Of a DNA stretch of 64,000 nucleotides, positions 48,846 to 59,369 are shown in pieces. The stretch comes from Chitinophaga pendula (GTDB lineage Bacteria; Bacteroidota; Bacteroidia; Chitinophagales; Chitinophagaceae), in contig NZ_CP077769.1 in assembly GCF_020386615.1 (NCBI RefSeq), positions 3,038,001 through 3,102,000 on the forward strand. Reading direction: 5' to 3'. The notes beneath the pieces are model-generated. The model was not told the origin of the DNA. It made no database searches and saw only the letters and a program-made list of their open reading frames with translations. A program made the translations under genes and the position numbers. Numbering within the stretch: the stretch's first letter is position 1; each line of letters opens with the position of its first letter.

Positions 48846-51056
48846 ATGTTTCAAATAGGAAATAAACATAACGACTTTCCCTTCTACAGACAATCAGATG
48901 CCATGGATTGCGGCCCCACCTGCCTTAAAATGATCGCAACGCACCACGGCCGCAAATTCCCGCTGCAGTACATCCGTAATATCAGTAAGATCACCCGCCA
49001 GGGCGTTACCATAGCCGACCTTATGGCCACCGCCGAAAATATGGGCTTCAAATCCCTCCCGGCAGAACTTCCCCTGCAGATACTCATCAAAAAAGCACCG
49101 CTACCTTGCATCCTCCATTGGGAAAAAAAACACTTCGTCGTTCTATACCGCATTACAGATACACATGCCTACATTGCAGACCCGGCCCTCGAAAGGCCGG
49201 TGAAATACTCCTTACAGGATTTCCTGCTCTCCTGGCAGCTGGATGAACATACCACCACCGGCCGGGCCCTCTTCCTGGAACCACAGCCACAATTCCATTC
49301 CCAGGAAATAAAAGGCACCTACAATACTTCCCTCCGGTCCCTTTGGCCACACCTGCGCGACCATCGTAGTAGCTGGCTCCCCGTAGCCATCACCTTGCTA
49401 CTGGCCACCCTATGCTCCGTACTCACTCCGCTGCTTACCCAGCGTATCGTCGATAGCGCCATCAGCGAAAAAAGTACCTCCATCCTGCTACTCATCTGTA
49501 TCGGTCAACTGCTGCTATTCGCCGGCCGCCTGTTCACCGACTTCATCCGCGCCCGCTTACTCTATAAAATGGGCGCTCGCATCAGCATACAAATGCTGAA
49601 AGCATATCTCGACAAACTAATGCGTCTGCCCCTTCCCTTCTTCGATAACAGACATGCCGGCGACAATATGCAACGGGTCACCGACAATCAACGGGTGGAA
49701 GACTTCCTAACCTCTTCCCTGGTCAACTTTATCCTCTCCGTAGTCACCATCATCGTATTAGGTGTCGTATTGTGCTACTATAACGGCTGGATATTCCTGC
49801 TCTTCCTCGCCGGAGCTGCCGCCAGTATCATCTGGGCCAACTCCTTCCAGGAAAGACGAAGAGTGCTCGACCAAAAGAAATTCAAAGTCCTAGCCGCCAA
49901 TCAGCATATCCTGCTCGAGATCTTTTCCGCCATGCAGGAAATTAAACTAACGGGCAGCGAAAAACTAAAAGGCAACCAGTGGCTGGACCTCCAGGAAAAA
50001 TCCTTCGACCTTAAACTGGAAAGCCTCCGCATGGATCAATTCATGCAAGGCACCGGCGCTTTCATCAACGAGATCAAGAACGTGCTGATCACCGGACTGG
50101 CCGCCAGCCTGGTCATACAGGGCGATATCACCTTGGGTGCCATGTTAGCCATCACTTTCATCTGCGGACAACTCAATGCACCCGTATTACAACTGGCCGA
50201 CTTCATCCGGGTCGCACAGAACACACGATTCAGCCTGCAACGCATGGCAGAAGTCGCACACGAACCGGATGAAGATCCACAACCCGATGCCTCCCTACCC
50301 TTGCAGGCCGTCACCGGGAAAGATATCGTCTTCAACCAGGTCAGTTTTCAATACGGACACCGGCACTCCCCCATGGTATTGAAAAATATAGACGTAACCA
50401 TCCCCTCAGGTAAGATCACAGCGATAGTAGGCATGAGCGGCGGCGGCAAAACAACCTTGCTCAAACTGCTGTTGAAATCCTACCACCCCGTAGCAGGCAA
50501 CATATATCTAGGTAGCCAGCCACTTACTGGCATTCCCGCCAAAGCGTGGAGAAAACATATCGGTGTAGTCATGCAGGATGGATATGTATTCATGGACACC
50601 ATCGCCAACAATATATTCGCAGGTGCCGAAGAAAGAAACCAGGAAAGACTTCAGCAGGCAGCAAAAATGGCTTGTATACACGATTTCTTCATAAGCATGC
50701 CCTTCGGATACGACACCGTCATAGGCAGCGAAGGCTATGGCCTCAGCGAAGGCCAGACACAACGCCTCCTCATCGCCCGCCTGATATATAGAAATCCCGC
50801 TTTTATCTTCCTCGACGAAGCCACCAACTCACTCGACGCACATAACGAAAAAGCCATCATTGATAACCTGAATAACTTCTTCCCGGGAAAAACAGTGGTC
50901 GTGGTGGCTCATAGACTCAGCACCGTCCGCCATGCCGATCAGATCCTCGTCATGGACCATGGCAGGATCGTAGAAAATGGTACGCACCAGGAACTGATCG
51001 CTACCGAAGGCCGATACTTTCAACTTATCCGCAACCAGCTTGAACTGGGGAAATAG
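48846..51056 (+). CDS. C39-peptidase ABC exporter of the lanthipeptide (LanT type)
   Basis: 736 residues in three parts. Peptidase C39 (1-135): Gln16, catalytic Cys22 in MDCGPTCLKM, His96 in HWEKKHFVVLY and Asp112 in ADPA. ABC membrane domain with six TM helices (about 160-440). ATPase: Walker A GMSGGGKTTLL, signature LSEGQ (variant of LSGGQ) in GLSEGQTQRLLIARLIYRNP, Walker B FIFLDEATNSLD and the H-loop VAHRLSTVRHAD. It cuts the leader after a Gly-Gly motif and exports the mature peptide. The precursor at 56813 has the fitting LAGG site. First gene of the operon; 15 bp before lanB. Confidence 0.92.
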   Translation: MFQIGNKHNDFPFYRQSDAMDCGPTCLKMIATHHGRKFPLQYIRNISKITRQGVTIADLMATAENMGFKSLPAELPLQILIKKAPLPCILHWEKKHFVVLYRITDTHAYIADPALERPVKYSLQDFLLSWQLDEHTTTGRALFLEPQPQFHSQEIKGTYNTSLRSLWPHLRDHRSSWLPVAITLLLATLCSVLTPLLTQRIVDSAISEKSTSILLLICIGQLLLFAGRLFTDFIRARLLYKMGARISIQMLKAYLDKLMRLPLPFFDNRHAGDNMQRVTDNQRVEDFLTSSLVNFILSVVTIIVLGVVLCYYNGWIFLLFLAGAAASIIWANSFQERRRVLDQKKFKVLAANQHILLEIFSAMQEIKLTGSEKLKGNQWLDLQEKSFDLKLESLRMDQFMQGTGAFINEIKNVLITGLAASLVIQGDITLGAMLAITFICGQLNAPVLQLADFIRVAQNTRFSLQRMAEVAHEPDEDPQPDASLPLQAVTGKDIVFNQVSFQYGHRHSPMVLKNIDVTIPSGKITAIVGMSGGGKTTLLKLLLKSYHPVAGNIYLGSQPLTGIPAKAWRKHIGVVMQDGYVFMDTIANNIFAGAEERNQERLQQAAKMACIHDFFISMPFGYDTVIGSEGYGLSEGQTQRLLIARLIYRNPAFIFLDEATNSLDAHNEKAIIDNLNNFFPGKTVVVVAHRLSTVRHADQILVMDHGRIVENGTHQELIATEGRYFQLIRNQLELGK

Positions 51057-51071
51057 AAAAATATAAACCGC

Positions 51072-53777
51072 ATGAGAGTAAAAATATTTCCATATGCCTT
51101 CGCCAGGTATACCACCATACATCAACAGCATTTTGAGGCCCTCCTGCTGGCTGATATACCCGTACAGCTTACAGCAATGGCCAATCTGTCCGCCCGGATC
51201 ACTCAAAGCAAAGAAGCCGCCTGCGAGCTGCTGTATCATAATATCCAATCACAAAACAATGACGCCGACAGACAACCACTCATACGGCTAAAACGACTCG
51301 TATTCAATACCAGGCTCCCCGACGAACACCTGCTACAAACAGTCATCCCACAACTCCCCGATACAACACAGCGTGCATTAAAAGAATACCTCGACCTGGT
51401 ACACCAGCAACAACAACTAACAAGCAGCTGGCAACAACACTTCGATGAACAACTAACCCGTCACCGCCAATCAATCCAGCAACTAAGTACCAATCCCTTG
51501 TTGGAGAATGGCTTGCTGTTATCCAGCCCTGTACTATTCGATCAGCTTCCCTCCTTCAGAAAAAGACCTGCGGATAACTTCAGACATAAAGAAGTAAAGA
51601 ATGAATACAGCTTGTTAAGATACCTCTCCCGTATGGCGTTCAAAACCTCGCCTTTTAGTACGTTCACCTATACAGGTATTGCAGAGATCAACAACACAGA
51701 CACCGCTTTGACCATCCCTCATCCGGAAACGATTAAAAGTGGCGTAAGGCTTAATAATGCGCTTTTCACCTACCTGCAGTCCCTGATGGTACATCACCCC
51801 GCCCTCAATGAAATATTGCTGGTAAGACTCAACAATACCACCATCCGGCACGACAATCACTTACAGTTCCTGGTCAACTGTTTCAATATAGAAGCCTTTC
51901 AGCGTATGCCCGCCGCCGGCATTGCCTTGTGGCTGTTCCACACACTGGAAGAACAATCTGCCACGCAGCTCACATTAAAAGAATTGATAGCAACTTTAGG
52001 CAACGCCATGGCAGATGCCGACCGGGAAAGTATCAAGTCATTCCTGCTCAAACTCATACGGGCTGGACTCCTCGAAGCAAGCACCGGCTGCTCCGGCATC
52101 AGCCCCGAATGGGATCTGGCCCTGATCTTCTTCCTCCGGCAATGCCGCGAAGAACATCCGCAGGTCATCCCGCTGTGCAACGTCCTCGAAGAACTACATG
52201 CCATCAGGGAAACATATACCACCGCATCGCCTGTACAACGAAGACCGTTATTACAAAAGGCAGCAGACAGCCTCAATCACACCCTTAACATATTACACCA
52301 ACAGGCAGGCTTCCCAACAGCAGATCCCGGGCAACAGGAGACCGGTAAAGAAGCCCTCATCCGGCAACAGCTGGAAGCAACCACCTTCGAAACGAACGTA
52401 TTCAGCCCACGGTATTTTCAGCCGGCTAATATCTTTTACGAAGATGCATCCACTCCCGAGGTCGCGACACTGCCAGCAAACAGCTTGCAACCGCTCGTGG
52501 AGAAAATAGACCAACTCTGCCAGGCCATCGCCTGCCTGGACGACCTGCAGGACGAAAGAGACGCGATGCGTAATTTCTTCCGGAAACATTACCAGGACAA
52601 CGATACCGTCCCCATAACAACATTCTATCACGACTACTACTTGCAGGAAAAAAAGAAAAGCAAAGAAACAACAGCCCAAAAGGCATCGCCCAACAGAAGA
52701 TCGGTCTCACCGGAAAACAAACAACTATTACTGCAATACCTCGACATACAATACAATAGTAAATCAGTAGTCAATATATGCCCCCAGCCGCGCTCAGCAA
52801 AGATTACAACACCAGCATCCCCTGCAGCAAAAGCAGTATTCGCGCAGCTATTTACCACATCTGTAGATAACTCATGCCGCTTGCAGGCAGTGATAAATAA
52901 TTTCCTGCCAGGTATGGGGAAAGTGGCAGGCCGATTCCTGGACTTGTTTGATCCGGCTATCACCAACACGTTCAGAGAATGGAACAATCGCCTCCACCAG
53001 GATACCGTCCTAATGGAATTAAGTGATGGCTCCAGCTTCAATGCCAATATACACCCACCCCTGCTAGCTTGTGAAATAAGGATCCCAGGGGGCCATAATA
53101 ATTATCCCGCTACACAACAAGCCCAGTTGCAGGACATCGTCGTAGCGTATGACAACAACAACAAAGCACTCTATCTGCATCACCTTACCTCCGGCAAAAG
53201 GATCTACGCATTCGACCTCTGCCTGGAGTCTTTCTATATGCGCTCCAACTTTTACCAGCTGCTCGCACACTTTAATCCCGAACAACATATCCCCGTCCGG
53301 CGTTTCGTACATATGCTGGATGAAACACATCTACACCTCCACCCATCCGGCGCTGCAGGCATCCTGTATAAGCCACGCATTGTCTATGCCGATGATGTGA
53401 TCATCCGCCGTAAAGGTTGGCTGATGGACGTAGCGATTATACCCACGCAGGGAAAAGAAGAAACAGAGGCTGGTTTTCTGCTGAGACTCAATCAATGGAG
53501 AATCTCACACGACATTCCCGAACAGGTCTTCCTGGTACTCCGTACACATTATAACACCATCCCGCTGACAGATAAAAATGAGCTGCAACGCGACGACTAT
53601 AAACCGCAATACATACATTTCTACAATCCGCTGCTGGTTATGTTATGGAAGAAACTGTTGTCCAGAGCAGACAAACAGATATACGTAGAAGAAATGTTAC
53701 CGCATACCGCGGATCTTAACCAGCCAACCAGCTCCCTACCCGTTACAGAACATCTTTTACATTGGTATAAATACTGA
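51072..53777 (+). CDS. Lantibiotic dehydratase, glutamylation half (split LanB)
   Basis: 901 residues matching the N-terminal LanB domain. The conserved block YSLLRYLSRMAFKTSPFSTF (179-198) corresponds to the tRNA-Glu/substrate-binding region of NisB-type enzymes; a further family segment is near residues 770-860 (RRKGWLMDVAIIP, FLVLRTHYN). It uses glutamyl-tRNA to activate Ser/Thr of the precursor as glutamyl esters. The elimination domain is not fused here but is encoded by the next gene, as in thiopeptide-type and pinensin-type systems. The stop is 3 bp before the next ATG. Cytosolic. Confidence 0.9.
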   Translation: MRVKIFPYAFARYTTIHQQHFEALLLADIPVQLTAMANLSARITQSKEAACELLYHNIQSQNNDADRQPLIRLKRLVFNTRLPDEHLLQTVIPQLPDTTQRALKEYLDLVHQQQQLTSSWQQHFDEQLTRHRQSIQQLSTNPLLENGLLLSSPVLFDQLPSFRKRPADNFRHKEVKNEYSLLRYLSRMAFKTSPFSTFTYTGIAEINNTDTALTIPHPETIKSGVRLNNALFTYLQSLMVHHPALNEILLVRLNNTTIRHDNHLQFLVNCFNIEAFQRMPAAGIALWLFHTLEEQSATQLTLKELIATLGNAMADADRESIKSFLLKLIRAGLLEASTGCSGISPEWDLALIFFLRQCREEHPQVIPLCNVLEELHAIRETYTTASPVQRRPLLQKAADSLNHTLNILHQQAGFPTADPGQQETGKEALIRQQLEATTFETNVFSPRYFQPANIFYEDASTPEVATLPANSLQPLVEKIDQLCQAIACLDDLQDERDAMRNFFRKHYQDNDTVPITTFYHDYYLQEKKKSKETTAQKASPNRRSVSPENKQLLLQYLDIQYNSKSVVNICPQPRSAKITTPASPAAKAVFAQLFTTSVDNSCRLQAVINNFLPGMGKVAGRFLDLFDPAITNTFREWNNRLHQDTVLMELSDGSSFNANIHPPLLACEIRIPGGHNNYPATQQAQLQDIVVAYDNNNKALYLHHLTSGKRIYAFDLCLESFYMRSNFYQLLAHFNPEQHIPVRRFVHMLDETHLHLHPSGAAGILYKPRIVYADDVIIRRKGWLMDVAIIPTQGKEETEAGFLLRLNQWRISHDIPEQVFLVLRTHYNTIPLTDKNELQRDDYKPQYIHFYNPLLVMLWKKLLSRADKQIYVEEMLPHTADLNQPTSSLPVTEHLLHWYKY

Positions 53778-53780
53778 GTG

Positions 53781-54701
53781 ATGGAAAGACACTGGCTATC
53801 CGCACATATATTTTTCGATGGAGACCTCAACCTGCTACTACGACAGGGGGTACAGCCATTACTGGCCGGGCTCTCCGCACAACTCGATATGAAATGCCCT
53901 TACTTTTTCATTCGCTATGGAGAAGAAGGACCACATATCCGCCTGCGGCTACTGACAACTCCCGCTCACGAAGCGGCTGTAAAAAACAGGTTGCAGGAAA
54001 ACATGGCCGCTTTCTTCCAACTGCATGCCACCGGCAGCAACACCCATCGCATACACTTCAGAGACTATCTGCCGGAAACAGACCGGTATGGTAATGCCTG
54101 CACCCTCCCTTATGCAGAACAACTTTTCTATCATTCCTCAGCCATCATCCTCGATTGGATCACACACAGCAGCACCTGGGGGCAATCACAGGCCTTCGTC
54201 AGCGCCATCCGACTCCATCTCATACTCCTGCATGCCACACAATACGACATGCCGCGTATTACATCCTGCTGCCAACATTTCATCAACAGCTGGCTGCCGC
54301 ATACTGAAGACCCTCAGCAACGACATTTGCTACTACAGCATATGCAACAGATGTTTAACCGGTACGCCGGCATATTATTGCCCACCACACAGGAGCTCTG
54401 GTCCGATCTATCCCGTTCACAGGCAGCAGGCAATCTCCAACTCATCCGGCAACAATACCATCATATTTACCGGCAATACCAACAGACCGGGCTTTCCGAT
54501 ACCCGGCTGGCAGATATCACCGGCAGCTTCCTGCACATGACCAACAACCGGCTGGGCATCGCCAACCAGGAAGAATCATTTATCGTTTACCTGACCCTTA
54601 AATGCATTGAACATATCCATGGAGCAAACACCACAACAATCGATCATACAGGAAGTAACAAGAATAGCCCATCACCTGATAGCTACCGCGACAACGGATG
54701 A
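53781..54701 (+). CDS. Thiopeptide-type biosynthesis protein, glutamate-elimination half of split LanB
   Basis: 306 residues of the SpaB C-terminal / lantibiotic dehydratase C family: ERHWLSAHIFFDGDLNLLL, YFFIRYGEEGPHIRLRLL (with the Arg/His set typical of the family near 45-60), HRIHFRDYLPETDRYG and AEQLFYHSSAIIL. It removes glutamate from the esterified Ser/Thr to give dehydroalanine/dehydrobutyrine. The ATG at 53781 is preferred over the GTG at 53778 that abuts the lanB stop. Its last 83 bases overlap the lanC gene in another frame; the tail after KCIEHIHG looks like low-complexity overlap sequence. Confidence 0.9.
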   Translation: MERHWLSAHIFFDGDLNLLLRQGVQPLLAGLSAQLDMKCPYFFIRYGEEGPHIRLRLLTTPAHEAAVKNRLQENMAAFFQLHATGSNTHRIHFRDYLPETDRYGNACTLPYAEQLFYHSSAIILDWITHSSTWGQSQAFVSAIRLHLILLHATQYDMPRITSCCQHFINSWLPHTEDPQQRHLLLQHMQQMFNRYAGILLPTTQELWSDLSRSQAAGNLQLIRQQYHHIYRQYQQTGLSDTRLADITGSFLHMTNNRLGIANQEESFIVYLTLKCIEHIHGANTTTIDHTGSNKNSPSPDSYRDNG

Positions 54702-56526
54702 ACAGGGTATATACTGGCTGACACCAGCCCCTGATCCCGGCAGCCAGCCTGCAGAGAGCTTCGATCTGTTTAATGGCTCCCCCGGCGTCATCCTTTTCCT
54801 GCTAACCCTATATGGATACAACCACGATAAATACTATCTCGAAAAAGCATTACTCGCCGCCAACCGCTTACTACAACAACCACAGGTAAAAGATCCTGCT
54901 TATTTCACATTCTATACCGGCGCGACCTCCGTCCTGTTCCTCTGCCTGCGCCTGCACCAGGCTACCAATGACCACCAATACCTCGAAAAAGCCAGGACAC
55001 TCTCCGCACACTATCTGGAAAGCATCAATACCAAAGTAGAACAGGATGACCTGCTGAGCGGAAATGCCGGCAACCTCCTCCTCTTTACCCACCTCTACGC
55101 CTATACTGCGGATGAATACTATCTGCAGCCCATCCGCACCCTCACAGACAAATTGATAGATAAAGCCCGCATCGCAGATAACGGCCTGAAGTGGGACCCT
55201 ATCAAACATGCATACGACAGCCTCACCGGCTTCTCTCATGGCGTTGCAGGTATCGCCTTTGCGCTCCTGCAAACAGCCCGCTGCTTCAATAGTACAGGTC
55301 TGTTATACCTGGCCGAACAGGCACTTGCATATGAAATGCAGTACTATGATCATGATCGTAATAACTGGATGGACCTCCGTATAGGCGCCCAACGGCTCCG
55401 CAATATCCATGACCAGCTGGGTCCACAACTTGCAAGCTGGCAACTACAATACTTCTACCCCACCATGAGCGATGTCAATACCTGGGCACATGGCGCAGCA
55501 GGCAGTGGCCTCAGCAGACTCTACGCCTGGGAAATGACGGGCAATAACAGCTACCTCGAACAGGCCACCGCAGCACTGCAAAAAGGGCTCTCGGATATCA
55601 CCGGCAGCGAACGTGGAGATTTCACCCTCTGCAGCGGATATGGCGGCATCGCCGCCCTCATGATGGAAACCGCCCGCATACGCCGCCAACCCGATTGGCA
55701 ATACCAAACCCAACACATCGCCCTAAAAGCAATCGCCCATTTCCGCCAACAACAAACCTACAATAGCTACATCAACAACAGCATAGCAGACCCGGGCCTC
55801 TTCTCCGGCCTGTCGGGCGTAGGATATTTTCTCCTGAGCACCATCCACCCCGCCGGAACAGCATCCATACTACATCCCATCATTACTACATCCCTACCGC
55901 ATCAACAAATGGAGCAATACACAATAGAAGCGGTCAAACAACGCCTCTTTACCAGATATTTCCCCAACACCATCCCACTGCTGTTACGCCAAAAACATCT
56001 CGATCACGCACATATCAACAGTACAGACAACATACACCAGCTATACCGGACAATAGCAGCTAAGATCACACCGACTTATGAAGACAAAGAAACCGTACAT
56101 CGCTGGGAAACAGATAAGCAAACCACCACCCTATGGCTGCAACACAAAGGATGGCTCTCCCACCGGAAAAGAAAAGAAATACATGAACAGTTGATAACCC
56201 ATCTCCTCACCACAAACAACGATGCCTTCCTGCAACAAATACTGGTAACCTCAGCCAATATCAGGTGGTTCCCTAACGCAGCCGCAGCAGAATTCCCCTA
56301 CACACTACTCTATAGCCACGAGACAGGCATCAGCAGCCTGCAGACAGGCAACTTCACCATCTGGATACTCAACCACCTCCAAACCCCGGCTACCCCCCAA
56401 GACTTATTCAACAAAATCCCCTTACCTGCCGCTACACAAAAACAGCATATTACCTCTACCCTCCTCTCCCAACTGAAAGAATTATTGCAAAGCGGCCTCA
56501 TAACTGTATATATACCCGCATCATGA
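54619..56526 (+). CDS. LanC-like lanthionine cyclase with altered zinc site and C-terminal extension
   Basis: 635 residues from the ATG at 54619 (a TTG at 54607 is also in frame), against about 410 for typical LanC. The alpha/alpha-barrel repeats are clear: NGSPGVILFLL, SGNAGNLLLFTHLY, GFSHGVAGIAFALLQT (His207), TWAHGAAGSGLSRL (290 region), TLCSGYGGIAALM (338 region) and DPGLFSGLSGVGYFLL. Against NisC (zinc ligands Cys284, Cys330, His331) the first Cys is Ala290 and the last His is Ser339; only Cys338 is kept, with His291 beside the lost Cys. Residues 430-635 are an extra region ending in a winged-helix-like unit (FTIWILNHLQTPATPQDLF then LLSQLKELLQSGLITVY). It should close (methyl)lanthionine rings, or bind the precursor if it is no longer catalytic. 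Confidence 0.85.
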   Translation: MEQTPQQSIIQEVTRIAHHLIATATTDEQGIYWLTPAPDPGSQPAESFDLFNGSPGVILFLLTLYGYNHDKYYLEKALLAANRLLQQPQVKDPAYFTFYTGATSVLFLCLRLHQATNDHQYLEKARTLSAHYLESINTKVEQDDLLSGNAGNLLLFTHLYAYTADEYYLQPIRTLTDKLIDKARIADNGLKWDPIKHAYDSLTGFSHGVAGIAFALLQTARCFNSTGLLYLAEQALAYEMQYYDHDRNNWMDLRIGAQRLRNIHDQLGPQLASWQLQYFYPTMSDVNTWAHGAAGSGLSRLYAWEMTGNNSYLEQATAALQKGLSDITGSERGDFTLCSGYGGIAALMMETARIRRQPDWQYQTQHIALKAIAHFRQQQTYNSYINNSIADPGLFSGLSGVGYFLLSTIHPAGTASILHPIITTSLPHQQMEQYTIEAVKQRLFTRYFPNTIPLLLRQKHLDHAHINSTDNIHQLYRTIAAKITPTYEDKETVHRWETDKQTTTLWLQHKGWLSHRKRKEIHEQLITHLLTTNNDAFLQQILVTSANIRWFPNAAAAEFPYTLLYSHETGISSLQTGNFTIWILNHLQTPATPQDLFNKIPLPAATQKQHITSTLLSQLKELLQSGLITVYIPAS

Positions 56527-56732
56527 TAAACAAATGGATTCCCCGTAGCACATCTACCCCCTAAAGGGTGCTTTTATGACGCATTAAATATAGCCCATTT
56601 TCGCCTGCAACAAACTGAAAATCAACAAGTAAAACCCTCACGTCCACCTCTCCCTTAATTAACCTATAACACTCCTATATCATTTGTATATCCAACCCAT
56701 ATTCCCCCTTTCTACCGGTATCCCCAAACAAA
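56527..56732. other. gene-free interval after lanC
   Basis: No coding signal. Holds copy 2 of the dispersed repeat (56637-56686), on the minus strand relative to copy 1. Confidence 0.5.
56637..56686 (-). repeat. dispersed intergenic repeat, copy 2
   Basis: Reverse complement matches 13403-13452 at 46 of 50 positions; looser similarity reaches about 30 bp further on each side. It lies between the lanC stop and the precursor terminator. Confidence 0.8.
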
Positions 56733-56764
56733 AGGGGCCGTCTCATTTTCATGAAACAGCCCCT
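56733..56764 (-). terminator. rho-independent terminator of the precursor gene
   Basis: Read on the minus strand: a 14-bp stem (AGGGGCTGTTTCAT with two G-U pairs), GAAA tetraloop, then TTTTGTTT. On the plus strand the wobble pairs become mismatches, so it serves the minus-strand precursor gene, ending 49-80 bp after its stop. Confidence 0.85.
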
Positions 56765-56812
56765 ATTTCGTTACTGAGTCCGTATTAAATCAAATCCAGC
56801 GTGACTTAATAC

Positions 56813-56998
56813 TTAGCAAACTTTTGTAGTGCAAAAATGGTGTTCGTCATCTGTCTGCTGAGTGTGAGTAGGGTGAGACTGGGCAGCCAGACCACCAGCG
56901 AGACGCATGCTCATTTCGCTGTCGATGCTGGTTACAAAGCTTTCAATTTTCAAATCGTCCAGGCTCAGTTTGATTTTGTCTGCATTGTTCTCTTTCAT
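56813..56998 (-). CDS. Class I lanthipeptide precursor (pinensin-like)
   Basis: 61 residues. The leader (1-36) carries KLSLDDLKIESFVTSI, close in style to pinensin-family leaders, and ends RLAGG, a double-Gly site for the C39 exporter. The core (37-61, beginning LAAQSHPTHTQQ) holds one Ser, five Thr, two Cys (56 and 61, the C-terminal residue) and four His. Thr49 to Cys56 and Thr57 or Thr58 to Cys61 are possible rings. The gene is convergent with the biosynthetic operon and has its own promoter (57067-57098) and terminator, allowing the high expression a precursor needs. The assignment rests on leader, site, Cys/Thr content and position; the product has not been shown. No second precursor is visible. 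Confidence 0.85.
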   Translation of the reverse strand: MKENNADKIKLSLDDLKIESFVTSIDSEMSMRLAGGLAAQSHPTHTQQTDDEHHFCTTKVC

Positions 56999-57263: not shown

Positions 57264-59369
57264 TTATAATCTCACACCAAAAAATGCTCTCATATTAAAT
57301 GGGTTACCATCGATATAATAAGTGGTCTTTACATCAGGATAAATAGAACCGATCAGGATATCCCCACTAGAGAAATAACGCTTGTCGGTGATATTATCAG
57401 CAATCACCCGCACATACCATTTCCCTGCATCAAAAGCTACGCCCGCATCAAACTTCGTATAACCAGGCAGGTATACATCTTTTGTATAGGTAGCAGGTTT
57501 CACCACTGTACTCTCTCCCAGGCTGAAACTTAATCTGCCGGCATCGCTGATAGGCAGACTGTATTGTATCCAGGCATTTGCTATCTGCTGCGGCATAAAC
57601 GCCAGCGACATACCTACATTGTTAGATTTGGTATCCTTGCTCGTAACAGCATGCGTATAGGCATAGTTGGCAGATACCGTCCACCTGTCCGTCAGCTGCC
57701 CGTTGATATCCAGCTCTACACCTGTGCTCGTCGCCTGCCCCGTTTGTATCCGGTAACGCGGATGCGTCAGATCAGACACCAACAGGTTGTTTTTGGTCAC
57801 CCGGAATACCGTAACATTTGTCGTCAACCGTTTATGCCACCACTCCCCTTTCATACCTACCTCCATATCATTTCCCCTCAGCGGCTTGAAAGAACGTTTT
57901 TCGAAATCCTGTCCGGGCTGCGGTATAAAAGATTGATCATACAACGCATACACGGAGATATTATCACGGATCAGCCAGGTAAGGCCCAGCCGGGGTGAAA
58001 ATGCCTGTTCTGACTCCCCTCCCGTCTGCTGTGTCGCAGTATATCGACCGCCTACATTGAGCCGCCACCGTGGACCAAGGTGTATCATATCATGTACAAA
58101 CACCGACCACCAGTTATTGATCTCATTAGAAGAAAACACATTTGTCAACATCTTCACACTGTCAGTGGGCAAGCCATACTGAGGACGATTACGGTCAAAA
58201 GCAAATGAATACTGTCCGTTATTATAATCATACAGATCCTTCGTATAATTATGATCCGCACCAGCTAACAGGTAATGTTTCACCGCAACTCCGGTCTGGA
58301 AATTACCCTTTACATATGCCTGCGTCGCAATTACCTCCGCCTGCTGAAAGCTTTTCACCGGCAACCGCCGCGTAGTATTGCTGGGGTCAAAGTTCACAGG
58401 AGATTGGTTATCAGACATCAGGTACCAGCTCTCAATAGGAGTCCTCGTATATTTACTCTGTAATATCAGTTTCCATTGCGGATGAAAAGCATGTGTGAAC
58501 ATTAGCCTGGCAGATTCCGTCTGCCCGTAAGAATCCGGCAATCCGGGATCACCACCATAATTACTGCTCAGCTTCGCATTACGTATCTCTTCATCTGTAC
58601 CTACTTTGGTCGTACTACTCCCTCCCTTCGCATTCATCCGTACCAGGTTATATTCTCCTAGTATATAGGTCTTCGGACTAAAATTATATTGCAATACCGG
58701 CGCCACCACGAATTTATTAGTCTTAATAAAATCCAGAAACGACTGCTGATACTGGTACGCCGCATTTAACCGGTAAGAAAACCCTTTATTCCTCACCGCA
58801 CTCCCCAGGTCTATAGCACCCCGCCACAGATTAAAGCTGCCACCGGATATCTCTACTTCTCTCACACGTTGCGACTTCGGCGCTTTTGTATTGATGTTGA
58901 TACTACCCCCAGGCTCTCCGGAAGATGCCAGGAAACCCGCCGGTCCCTTGATAAACTCCACTGACTCTATAATAGCGGCATCATCCACCGAACTCTTTTG
59001 ATATAACCCGTTCACAAAAGTCGGCGCAGGGAACCCTCTCATAAATATCGTGGTAGATGCATCAAATAGGTTGGAACTATATCCCATATGCACACCGCTG
59101 GCATTACGTACAATATCACGTAACACCAACCCTCCTTGTTCCCGGATCAGTGCACTACTCACATTTACAATATGCTGAGGTGTCTCCAGGAAACTGCCCT
59201 CCAAGCGCAACAGGGACGATACACTATCCGTTCTGAAACGACGTTTCCGATCTGCGACCTCCACCTCCTTGAGCCGCATTTTACGTAGACTGTCAGGTAC
59301 ACGCTGCTGTGCATATACCCAACCAGACAAATGAATAATAATACTTAGTATAACGACATTTTTTTTCAT
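57264..59369 (-). CDS. TonB-dependent siderophore-type receptor
   Basis: 701 residues: signal peptide (VILSIIIHLSGWVYAQ), a short linker without a carboxypeptidase-D domain, a TonB-box-like LKEVEVADRKRRFRTDSV, plug motifs LRDIVRNASGVHMGY, STTIFMRGF, ESVEFIKGPAGFLASSGEPG and GSININTKAP, and a barrel ending GNPFNMRAFFGVRL. The plug is of the FhuE/FpvA siderophore-receptor group. It is the last gene of a minus-strand set with two ABC permeases, an ATPase and a small metal-motif protein, 26 bp after the permease. It may import a metallophore, or bind the lanthipeptide encoded next to it; neither can be proven here. Confidence 0.85.
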   Translation of the reverse strand: MKKNVVILSIIIHLSGWVYAQQRVPDSLRKMRLKEVEVADRKRRFRTDSVSSLLRLEGSFLETPQHIVNVSSALIREQGGLVLRDIVRNASGVHMGYSSNLFDASTTIFMRGFPAPTFVNGLYQKSSVDDAAIIESVEFIKGPAGFLASSGEPGGSININTKAPKSQRVREVEISGGSFNLWRGAIDLGSAVRNKGFSYRLNAAYQYQQSFLDFIKTNKFVVAPVLQYNFSPKTYILGEYNLVRMNAKGGSSTTKVGTDEEIRNAKLSSNYGGDPGLPDSYGQTESARLMFTHAFHPQWKLILQSKYTRTPIESWYLMSDNQSPVNFDPSNTTRRLPVKSFQQAEVIATQAYVKGNFQTGVAVKHYLLAGADHNYTKDLYDYNNGQYSFAFDRNRPQYGLPTDSVKMLTNVFSSNEINNWWSVFVHDMIHLGPRWRLNVGGRYTATQQTGGESEQAFSPRLGLTWLIRDNISVYALYDQSFIPQPGQDFEKRSFKPLRGNDMEVGMKGEWWHKRLTTNVTVFRVTKNNLLVSDLTHPRYRIQTGQATSTGVELDINGQLTDRWTVSANYAYTHAVTSKDTKSNNVGMSLAFMPQQIANAWIQYSLPISDAGRLSFSLGESTVVKPATYTKDVYLPGYTKFDAGVAFDAGKWYVRVIADNITDKRYFSSGDILIGSIYPDVKTTYYIDGNPFNMRAFFGVRL

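Follow-up and report, generated by a model that had tools for sequence, protein, structure and literature searches.

A pinensin-type LanC of Chitinophaga pendula that lacks two of three zinc ligands, a probable zinc-independent class I lanthipeptide cyclase

Our analysis indicates that the LanC encoded at positions 54619 to 56526 (forward strand) of the window, i.e., of the whole 64,000-nucleotide stretch of Chitinophaga pendula DNA analyzed here, has lost two of its three zinc ligands. We consider this protein likely to be an active, zinc-independent class I cyclase of a pinensin-type pathway that has kept its Asp/His acid-base machinery. The loss of the ligands is neither chance nor a sequencing error, since Ala stands in the first ligand column in 78 of the 78 closest proteins and in 39 of 39 loci of the same family from genome contigs.

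Zinc-site positions of LanC and the surrounding cluster

The open ORF encodes 635 amino acids from its ATG, and its product matches PF05147 (LANC_like) with 172.7 bits (cut-off, 23.2), which places it among the LanC alpha,alpha-toroid proteins; PF05147 is the sole Pfam domain found in it, with no kinase or lyase domain fused. Where zinc LanCs show the motifs WC(H/Y)G and CHG, with Cys, Cys, and His (or Cys) as ligands, this protein instead reads WAHG and LCSG, leaving Ala290, Cys338, and Ser339 in the three positions. By sequence and alignment, TWAHGAAG (55480 to 55503, forward strand) carries Ala290 (codon at 55486 to 55488, forward strand, by translation) in place of NisC Cys284 and retains His291, and LCSGY (55627 to 55641, forward strand), within TLCSGYGG, retains Cys338 and carries Ser339 in place of NisC His331 (codons of both at 55630 to 55635, forward strand, by translation). 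The three aligned columns can be taken as ligand columns because 42 other homologs (P0079 to P0120) show Cys in 42, Cys in 42, and His in 34 plus Cys in 8, respectively. ORF and alignment bear out the original prediction that Ala has replaced the first Cys and Ser the last His in these two motifs, with Cys338 kept.

The genome (7.66 Mb, single contig) harbors the gene in a compact lanthipeptide cluster of the antifungal type at 48846 to 56998, consisting of a C39 ABC exporter, the N- and C-terminal parts of LanB, LanC, and a precursor on the opposite strand. The exporter LanT (48846 to 51056, forward strand; 736 amino acids; PF03412, PF00664, and PF00005) combines a C39 peptidase with an ABC transporter and is expected to cleave the precursor behind GG and secrete the product. 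The LanB N-part (51072 to 53777, forward strand; 901 amino acids; PF04738, 124 bits), the glutamylation half of the split dehydratase, aligns to TbtB (6ec7), including KTSPFSTFT/KTSPYSTFT, and the LanB C-part (53778 to 54701, forward strand; 307 amino acids; PF14028, 143 bits) is the elimination half. In the latter, FIRY..HIRLRL, DRYG, and HMTNNRL, which we take to hold the elimination residues, align with FIRY..HLRVRF, ERYG, and HMTCNRL of MibB. This distribution of PF04738 and PF14028 over two genes is that of a pinensin-type cluster. The 61-residue precursor LanA (56813 to 56998, reverse strand) matches the pinensin leader model NF038180 (leader_pinensin) with 47.4 bits (cut-off, 24), as do, above the cut-off, six of six tested relatives. 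Its leader extends to GG (56891 to 56998, reverse strand) and is followed by the core LAAQSHPTHTQQTDDEHHFCTTKVC (56816 to 56890, reverse strand), which contains two Cys and suitable Thr residues. Directly beyond the precursor, a TonB-dependent siderophore receptor is encoded at 57264 to 59369 (reverse strand).

The same arrangement recurs throughout the family. The order LanT, LanB N-part, LanB C-part, and LanC is found in 38 of 39 named loci (no LanT was found near L040), and in each of the 39 a single precursor with the pinensin leader is encoded downstream of LanC on the other strand, at a distance of about 1 kb or less in 38. The precursor of L015 (L015:19091-19273), 7.3 kb from LanC, is the only far one in the set. 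All 39 cores contain THT with flanking His and Asp, and 38 contain two Cys; a third Cys in L031 lies upstream of the likely start. The locus with one Cys, L045, belongs to an uncultured Hymenobacter MAG on a deep branch of the family, and its LanB N-part consists of two overlapping ORFs in different frames.

Another of these loci, L016, links the family to a known product. It comes from Chitinophaga sp. YR627, the core peptide of which is described as identical to pinensin in a study that also names C. pinensis DSM 2588 as a carrier of the cluster (PMC9248904), and its LanC reads GLSHG, WAHG, and LCSG, motifs that also occur, in separate frames, in a C. pinensis YS-16 fragment (L060). Pinensins are described in a preprint as containing two methyllanthionine (MeLan) rings and as products of class I enzymes, a LanC among them (PMC13060382). 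Judged by sequence, the zinc-less pinensin-type LanC is therefore the one in the cluster of this characterized two-ring product. The original prediction had held that a close homolog with the same motifs and proven normal cyclase activity would speak against it; YR627 largely supplies such a case, with the product described (PMC9248904 and PMC13060382) and the activity of the enzyme predicted. The window's pathway shares with pinensin biosynthesis in Chitinophaga the NF038180 leader, the core pattern SHPTHT..TDDE.H.CTT..C, the split LanB, the C39 transporter, and a LanC of the same clade. The two precursors are 75% identical, but the cores differ at several positions, and pinensins are called two-component (PMC13060382), whereas one precursor gene was found in the window.

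Ligand loss across the family and its evolution

A protein search in which 7999 candidates were scored provided P0001 to P0120, the best 120 of 133 homologs, with the window's LanC included. A scan of genome contigs with two patterns that contain no zinc motifs, and hence do not select for ligand loss, provided 59 loci, of which 39 (L007 to L045) represent the pinensin-type family; their hosts are Chitinophaga, Pedobacter, Sphingobacterium, Sinomicrobium, Aquimarina, Fulvivirga, Hymenobacter, and others. The resulting 117 aligned rows are composed of 78 database proteins and the 39 loci, 12 of which share 99% identity or more with one of these proteins. The comparison with Bacteroidota LanCs that the original prediction had proposed shows the ligand loss to be family-wide: the first ligand column is Ala in 117 of 117 rows, the second is Cys in 100, Val in 13, Ser in 3, and Thr in 1, and the third is Ser in 111, Thr in 4, Asn in 1, and Ala in 1, with His in none. 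Among the best 120 of 133 homologs, P0001 to P0078 follow their invariant Ala with CS in 74 cases, VS in 2 (P0066 and P0067), and ST in 2 (P0076 and P0077) at the second and third ligands, the 42 remaining proteins having Cys at the first; WAHG is present in all 39 loci. P0066 is a Pedobacter-like pinensin LanC that carries the database label Agrobacterium tumefaciens, probably through contamination of the assembly.

Beyond what had been predicted, Cys338 itself is not conserved, being lost in 17 of the 117 rows. Since Pedobacter clusters of the CSG type and the VSG type (L019 and L022) have nearly the same core peptide, this residue looks, from the sequences, dispensable for that Pedobacter product. 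A search of the LanC domain across the 117 rows yielded no conserved alternative Cys/His triad and no new invariant Cys or His; His207 and His291 are the only Cys/His columns above 95%, followed by Cys338 (100/117) and Cys109 (95/114).

With respect to the origin of the loss, a 35-row tree from which the ligand columns had been dropped unites the 19 zinc-less family rows in a single branch (99/98) adjacent to P0079, L049, and L154. L154, which comes from a genome belonging to the genus of the window, encodes a 648-residue LanC that has the same C-terminal extension as the window's protein (38.4 bits) together with intact WCHG and LCHG. Because this zinc-bearing sister shares the extension, the sequences indicate that the extension arose first and that the pinensin-type family lost the zinc site later. 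The cluster of L154 (L154:6167-10533) pairs the zinc-type, extended LanC with a putative Thr-rich precursor of 89 amino acids that has a different core, beside a 559-amino-acid ORF. L049 lost the zinc site separately, and His207 with it; no LanB or precursor was found within 10 kb.

A 115-row tree in which the ligand columns were kept requires at least seven changes of zinc-site state, four of them forced by starred branches, and contains several long branches. Across Bacteroidota LanCs, these sequences indicate, the zinc site was lost several times, and we rejected the idea of a loss unique to the window's LanC or its family on the basis of these state changes. In the same tree the pinensin LanCs cluster with cyclases of the LanM type, as noted by Walker et al. 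(PMC7268733). Elsewhere among Bacteroidota, neighboring LanC pairs were observed (L077, L114, and L131; L142/L143; L144/L145) in which one member is of the zinc type and the other is ligand-less (e.g., WSYG/RHG); such pairs are possible heteromeric cyclases. Pedobacter-type genomes contain a second zinc-less LanC group of about 410 amino acids (L148 to L153; surroundings L155 to L157), which lies next to LanB-sized ORFs and ORFs for C39-type transporters; the published Pedobacter peptides may belong to this group.

Retained residues and the closing of the rings

The counterparts of the NisC acid-base residues Asp141 and His212 are present as Asp144 and His207, each in 116 of 116 rows, and His291 is present in 117 of 117 pinensin-type rows. 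The prediction that the His of GFSHG is intact thus proved correct for His207, which lies together with Asp200 in residues 200 to 208 (55216 to 55242, forward strand). As the first scan pattern includes Asp200 and His207 and is matched by 35 of the 39 loci, the conservation of these two is partly due to row selection; in the database rows alone, His207 is found in 77/77, Asp144 in 77/77, His291 in 78/78, and Asp200 in 76/77. Work on LanCL1 assigns enolate protonation to the His212 counterpart and contact with the enolate oxygen to the residue that follows the first ligand (LanCL1 His277, NisC Tyr285; PMC9934072), to which His291 corresponds. Because these enolate and acid-base residues are kept, the part of the site that has been lost is, as far as sequence can tell, the thiol-activating metal part. 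The suggestion that His291, next to the lost Cys, serves as a substitute ligand did not hold, given that 38 of the 42 zinc-type homologs P0079 to P0120 have His at this position too and that it is the enolate-oxygen residue (PMC9934072).

Thirteen columns of the LanC domain are switched (at least 90% in the family versus 10% in 43 zinc-bearing rows), and in ten of them (51, 200, 231, 242, 290, 339, 341, 382, 396, and 409) the family state is not common to P0079, L154, or P0087. The most suggestive candidate for a base is Asp200, seven residues before His207, which is Arg in the zinc-bearing sisters P0079, P0087, and L154. The same replacement could be read as part of another metal site, e.g., a 2-His-1-carboxylate site formed by His207 and His291 with Asp144, Asp200, or Asp391, residues that are 98 to 100% conserved in the family (Asp200 and His207 partly by row choice) and sit in loops just before predicted helices. 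We regard such a site as very unlikely, in that the 42 zinc-type rows conserve His207, His291, and Asp144 to an equal or almost equal degree, both His have other reported roles (PMC9934072), and no new conserved Cys or His exists. Asp391 as a family-specific substitute for zinc was rejected, as P0079, P0087, and L154 carry it as well.

The LanC gene is under purifying selection, with dN/dS values of 0.09 to 0.24 in the 11 measurable pairs of 13 chosen (two were saturated, and 5 of the 11 have dS above 1.1). Gene decay was rejected in view of these values, the retained catalytic residues, and the kept gene order; the cluster, with its C39 transporter, split LanB, LanC, and precursor, is complete and free of decay, as had been proposed. 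Thiol addition to Dhb is slower than addition to Dha, and because of this MeLan rings should need help, which counts against a noncatalytic LanC that serves the LanB complex as scaffold or chaperone while the rings close spontaneously in the held Dhb peptide. The absence of two of three ligands in 117 of 117 rows would fit such a scaffold, as would an RRE-like fold, predicted on the same chain, that could hold the peptide, and CA_C0082, a LanM-like protein without the zinc motif, is described as unneeded for its suspected peptide product (PMC10301443). Yet Asp144, His207, and His291, which a pure scaffold would not obviously require, are kept, while the orphan L049, around which neither a LanB nor a precursor was found within 10 kb, has lost His207 and Trp289 and may picture what release from function looks like. 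We therefore consider the scaffold unlikely. Of the two outcomes that had been joined in the original prediction, ring formation by other than the usual zinc chemistry gains support, whereas a pure scaffold is disfavored because of the retained acid/base residues, the purifying selection, and the presence of the family LanC in the cluster of a product with two MeLan rings.

By the accepted mechanism, class I, II, and IV cyclases activate the Cys thiol with zinc. Mutations in NisC and SgbL are reported to show that the zinc ligands are essential (PMC9889658), and the title of a paper given in reference lists states that zinc-ligand mutants of LctM are impaired, both of which count against a zinc-free reading. 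In the literature searched, we found no activity or metal measurement on any pinensin-type LanC and, in its listings and passages, no statement of a zinc-less pinensin cyclase or of zinc-less class I LanCs. We infer that LanC would itself carry out the cyclization, with no metal bound. In this model, the split LanB would dehydrate Thr (and Ser) in the precursor core, and LanC would bind the precursor, possibly by the leader via its fused RRE-like domain, so that the Cys thiols are set beside Dhb. In place of zinc, positioning and a base from the protein (candidates are Asp200 and Asp144) would activate the thiols, while His291 would stabilize the enolate oxygen and His207, with Asp144, would protonate the alpha-carbon, both as in zinc LanCs. 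LanT would then cleave at GG and export the product. A substrate-assisted variant, in which, after docking of the leader by the RRE-like domain, the near-invariant pinensin core itself provides the base or metal ligands for the activation of its Cys, would divide catalysis between enzyme and peptide and render the enzyme core-specific; we hold this to be highly improbable.

Our search for PF05147 proteins covered 41 genomes (39 with an intact family member and those of L049 and L060), and 60 regions with other LanC matches, along with four wider surroundings, were examined; the counts that follow are among the matches listed. Two zinc-type proteins, the LanC L003 (WCYG/LCHG) and the LanM-like L001 (WCHG/ICHG), are encoded in the window's genome, all 12 Chitinophaga genomes (L007 to L018) have at least three PF05147 matches, and YR627 has zinc-type LanCs elsewhere (L109 and L133), so that in Chitinophaga a helper LanC is possible. 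However, ring closure in trans by a zinc-type LanC encoded at another locus of the genome appears extremely improbable to us, and as a general rule it is disfavored: in nine of the 41 genomes, which are drafts, no zinc-type PF05147 protein was found among the matches listed, and their precursors keep both Cys. In six of these (L020, L021, L032, L035, L040, and L043) the pinensin-type LanC is the sole match listed, and in the other three (L027, L033, and L036) the one other match listed (L150, L151, and L152) is also ligand-less. In addition, L003 has partners of its own in an apparent second class I cluster of the window's genome (L159; G000:C1:5480000-5498000), where this 406-residue LanC lies beside a LanB-sized ORF of 1049 amino acids and two small ORFs that contain Cys. 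The genome also encodes a LanC-like protein of 391 amino acids (L004; G000:C1:6887970-6889145, L158:7971-9146), divergent from a 1035-amino-acid LanB-sized ORF, which reads WKSG/IEEG and GLGSG and has none of the ligands nor the acid His.

The C-terminal extension and comparison with known cyclases

A further feature absent from the original prediction is the C-terminal extension of about 210 residues (424 to 635; 55888 to 56523, forward strand), a helical part followed by an RRE-like winged-helix part. Its Pfam search gave no match above the cut-off, and a sequence profile compared with PDB chains gave no useful match. In the predicted model (pLDDT, 90.9), residues 540 to 634, approximately (56236 to 56520, forward strand), show a tentative resemblance to PqqD-like winged-helix RRE folds, and we infer that the extension is a possible leader-binding RRE. 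Should this domain indeed bind the leader, LanC would need no partner to recruit its precursor, a property that engineering might exploit.

The window's LanC resembles the zinc-dependent class I enzymes NisC and MadC in its fold, in the counterparts of Asp141 and His212, and in its class I dehydratase partner, and it differs from them in the replacement of Cys284 and His331 and in the added extension. Bothwell et al. in 2021 reportedly described a class I cyclase of Pedobacter lusitanus without canonical zinc ligands that still makes lanthionines; this enzyme would thus be, like the window's LanC, a class I protein of Bacteroidota without the canonical ligands, and it may belong to the L148 to L153 group. 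A precedent for zinc-free cyclization is the class III LanKC ThurKC (PMC10604976). Class III LanKCs lack zinc ligands, of which two of three are also absent here, but in them kinase and lyase domains are fused to the cyclase, which the window's LanC does not have. In ThurKC, Asp141 and His212 are reported to be replaced by Ser608 and Asp667, and Asp771, which may serve as the base, stands at the third ligand (PMC10604976), whereas the window's LanC keeps Asp144 and His207 and has Ser339. The conserved class I family without a zinc site, with its MeLan product, and the zinc-bearing L154, which has the same architecture and occurs in the genus of the window, form a natural pair for testing the role of zinc. 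Zinc-free cyclization is thus already known, and the new parts are the putative fusion to an RRE-like domain and the zinc-bearing sister.
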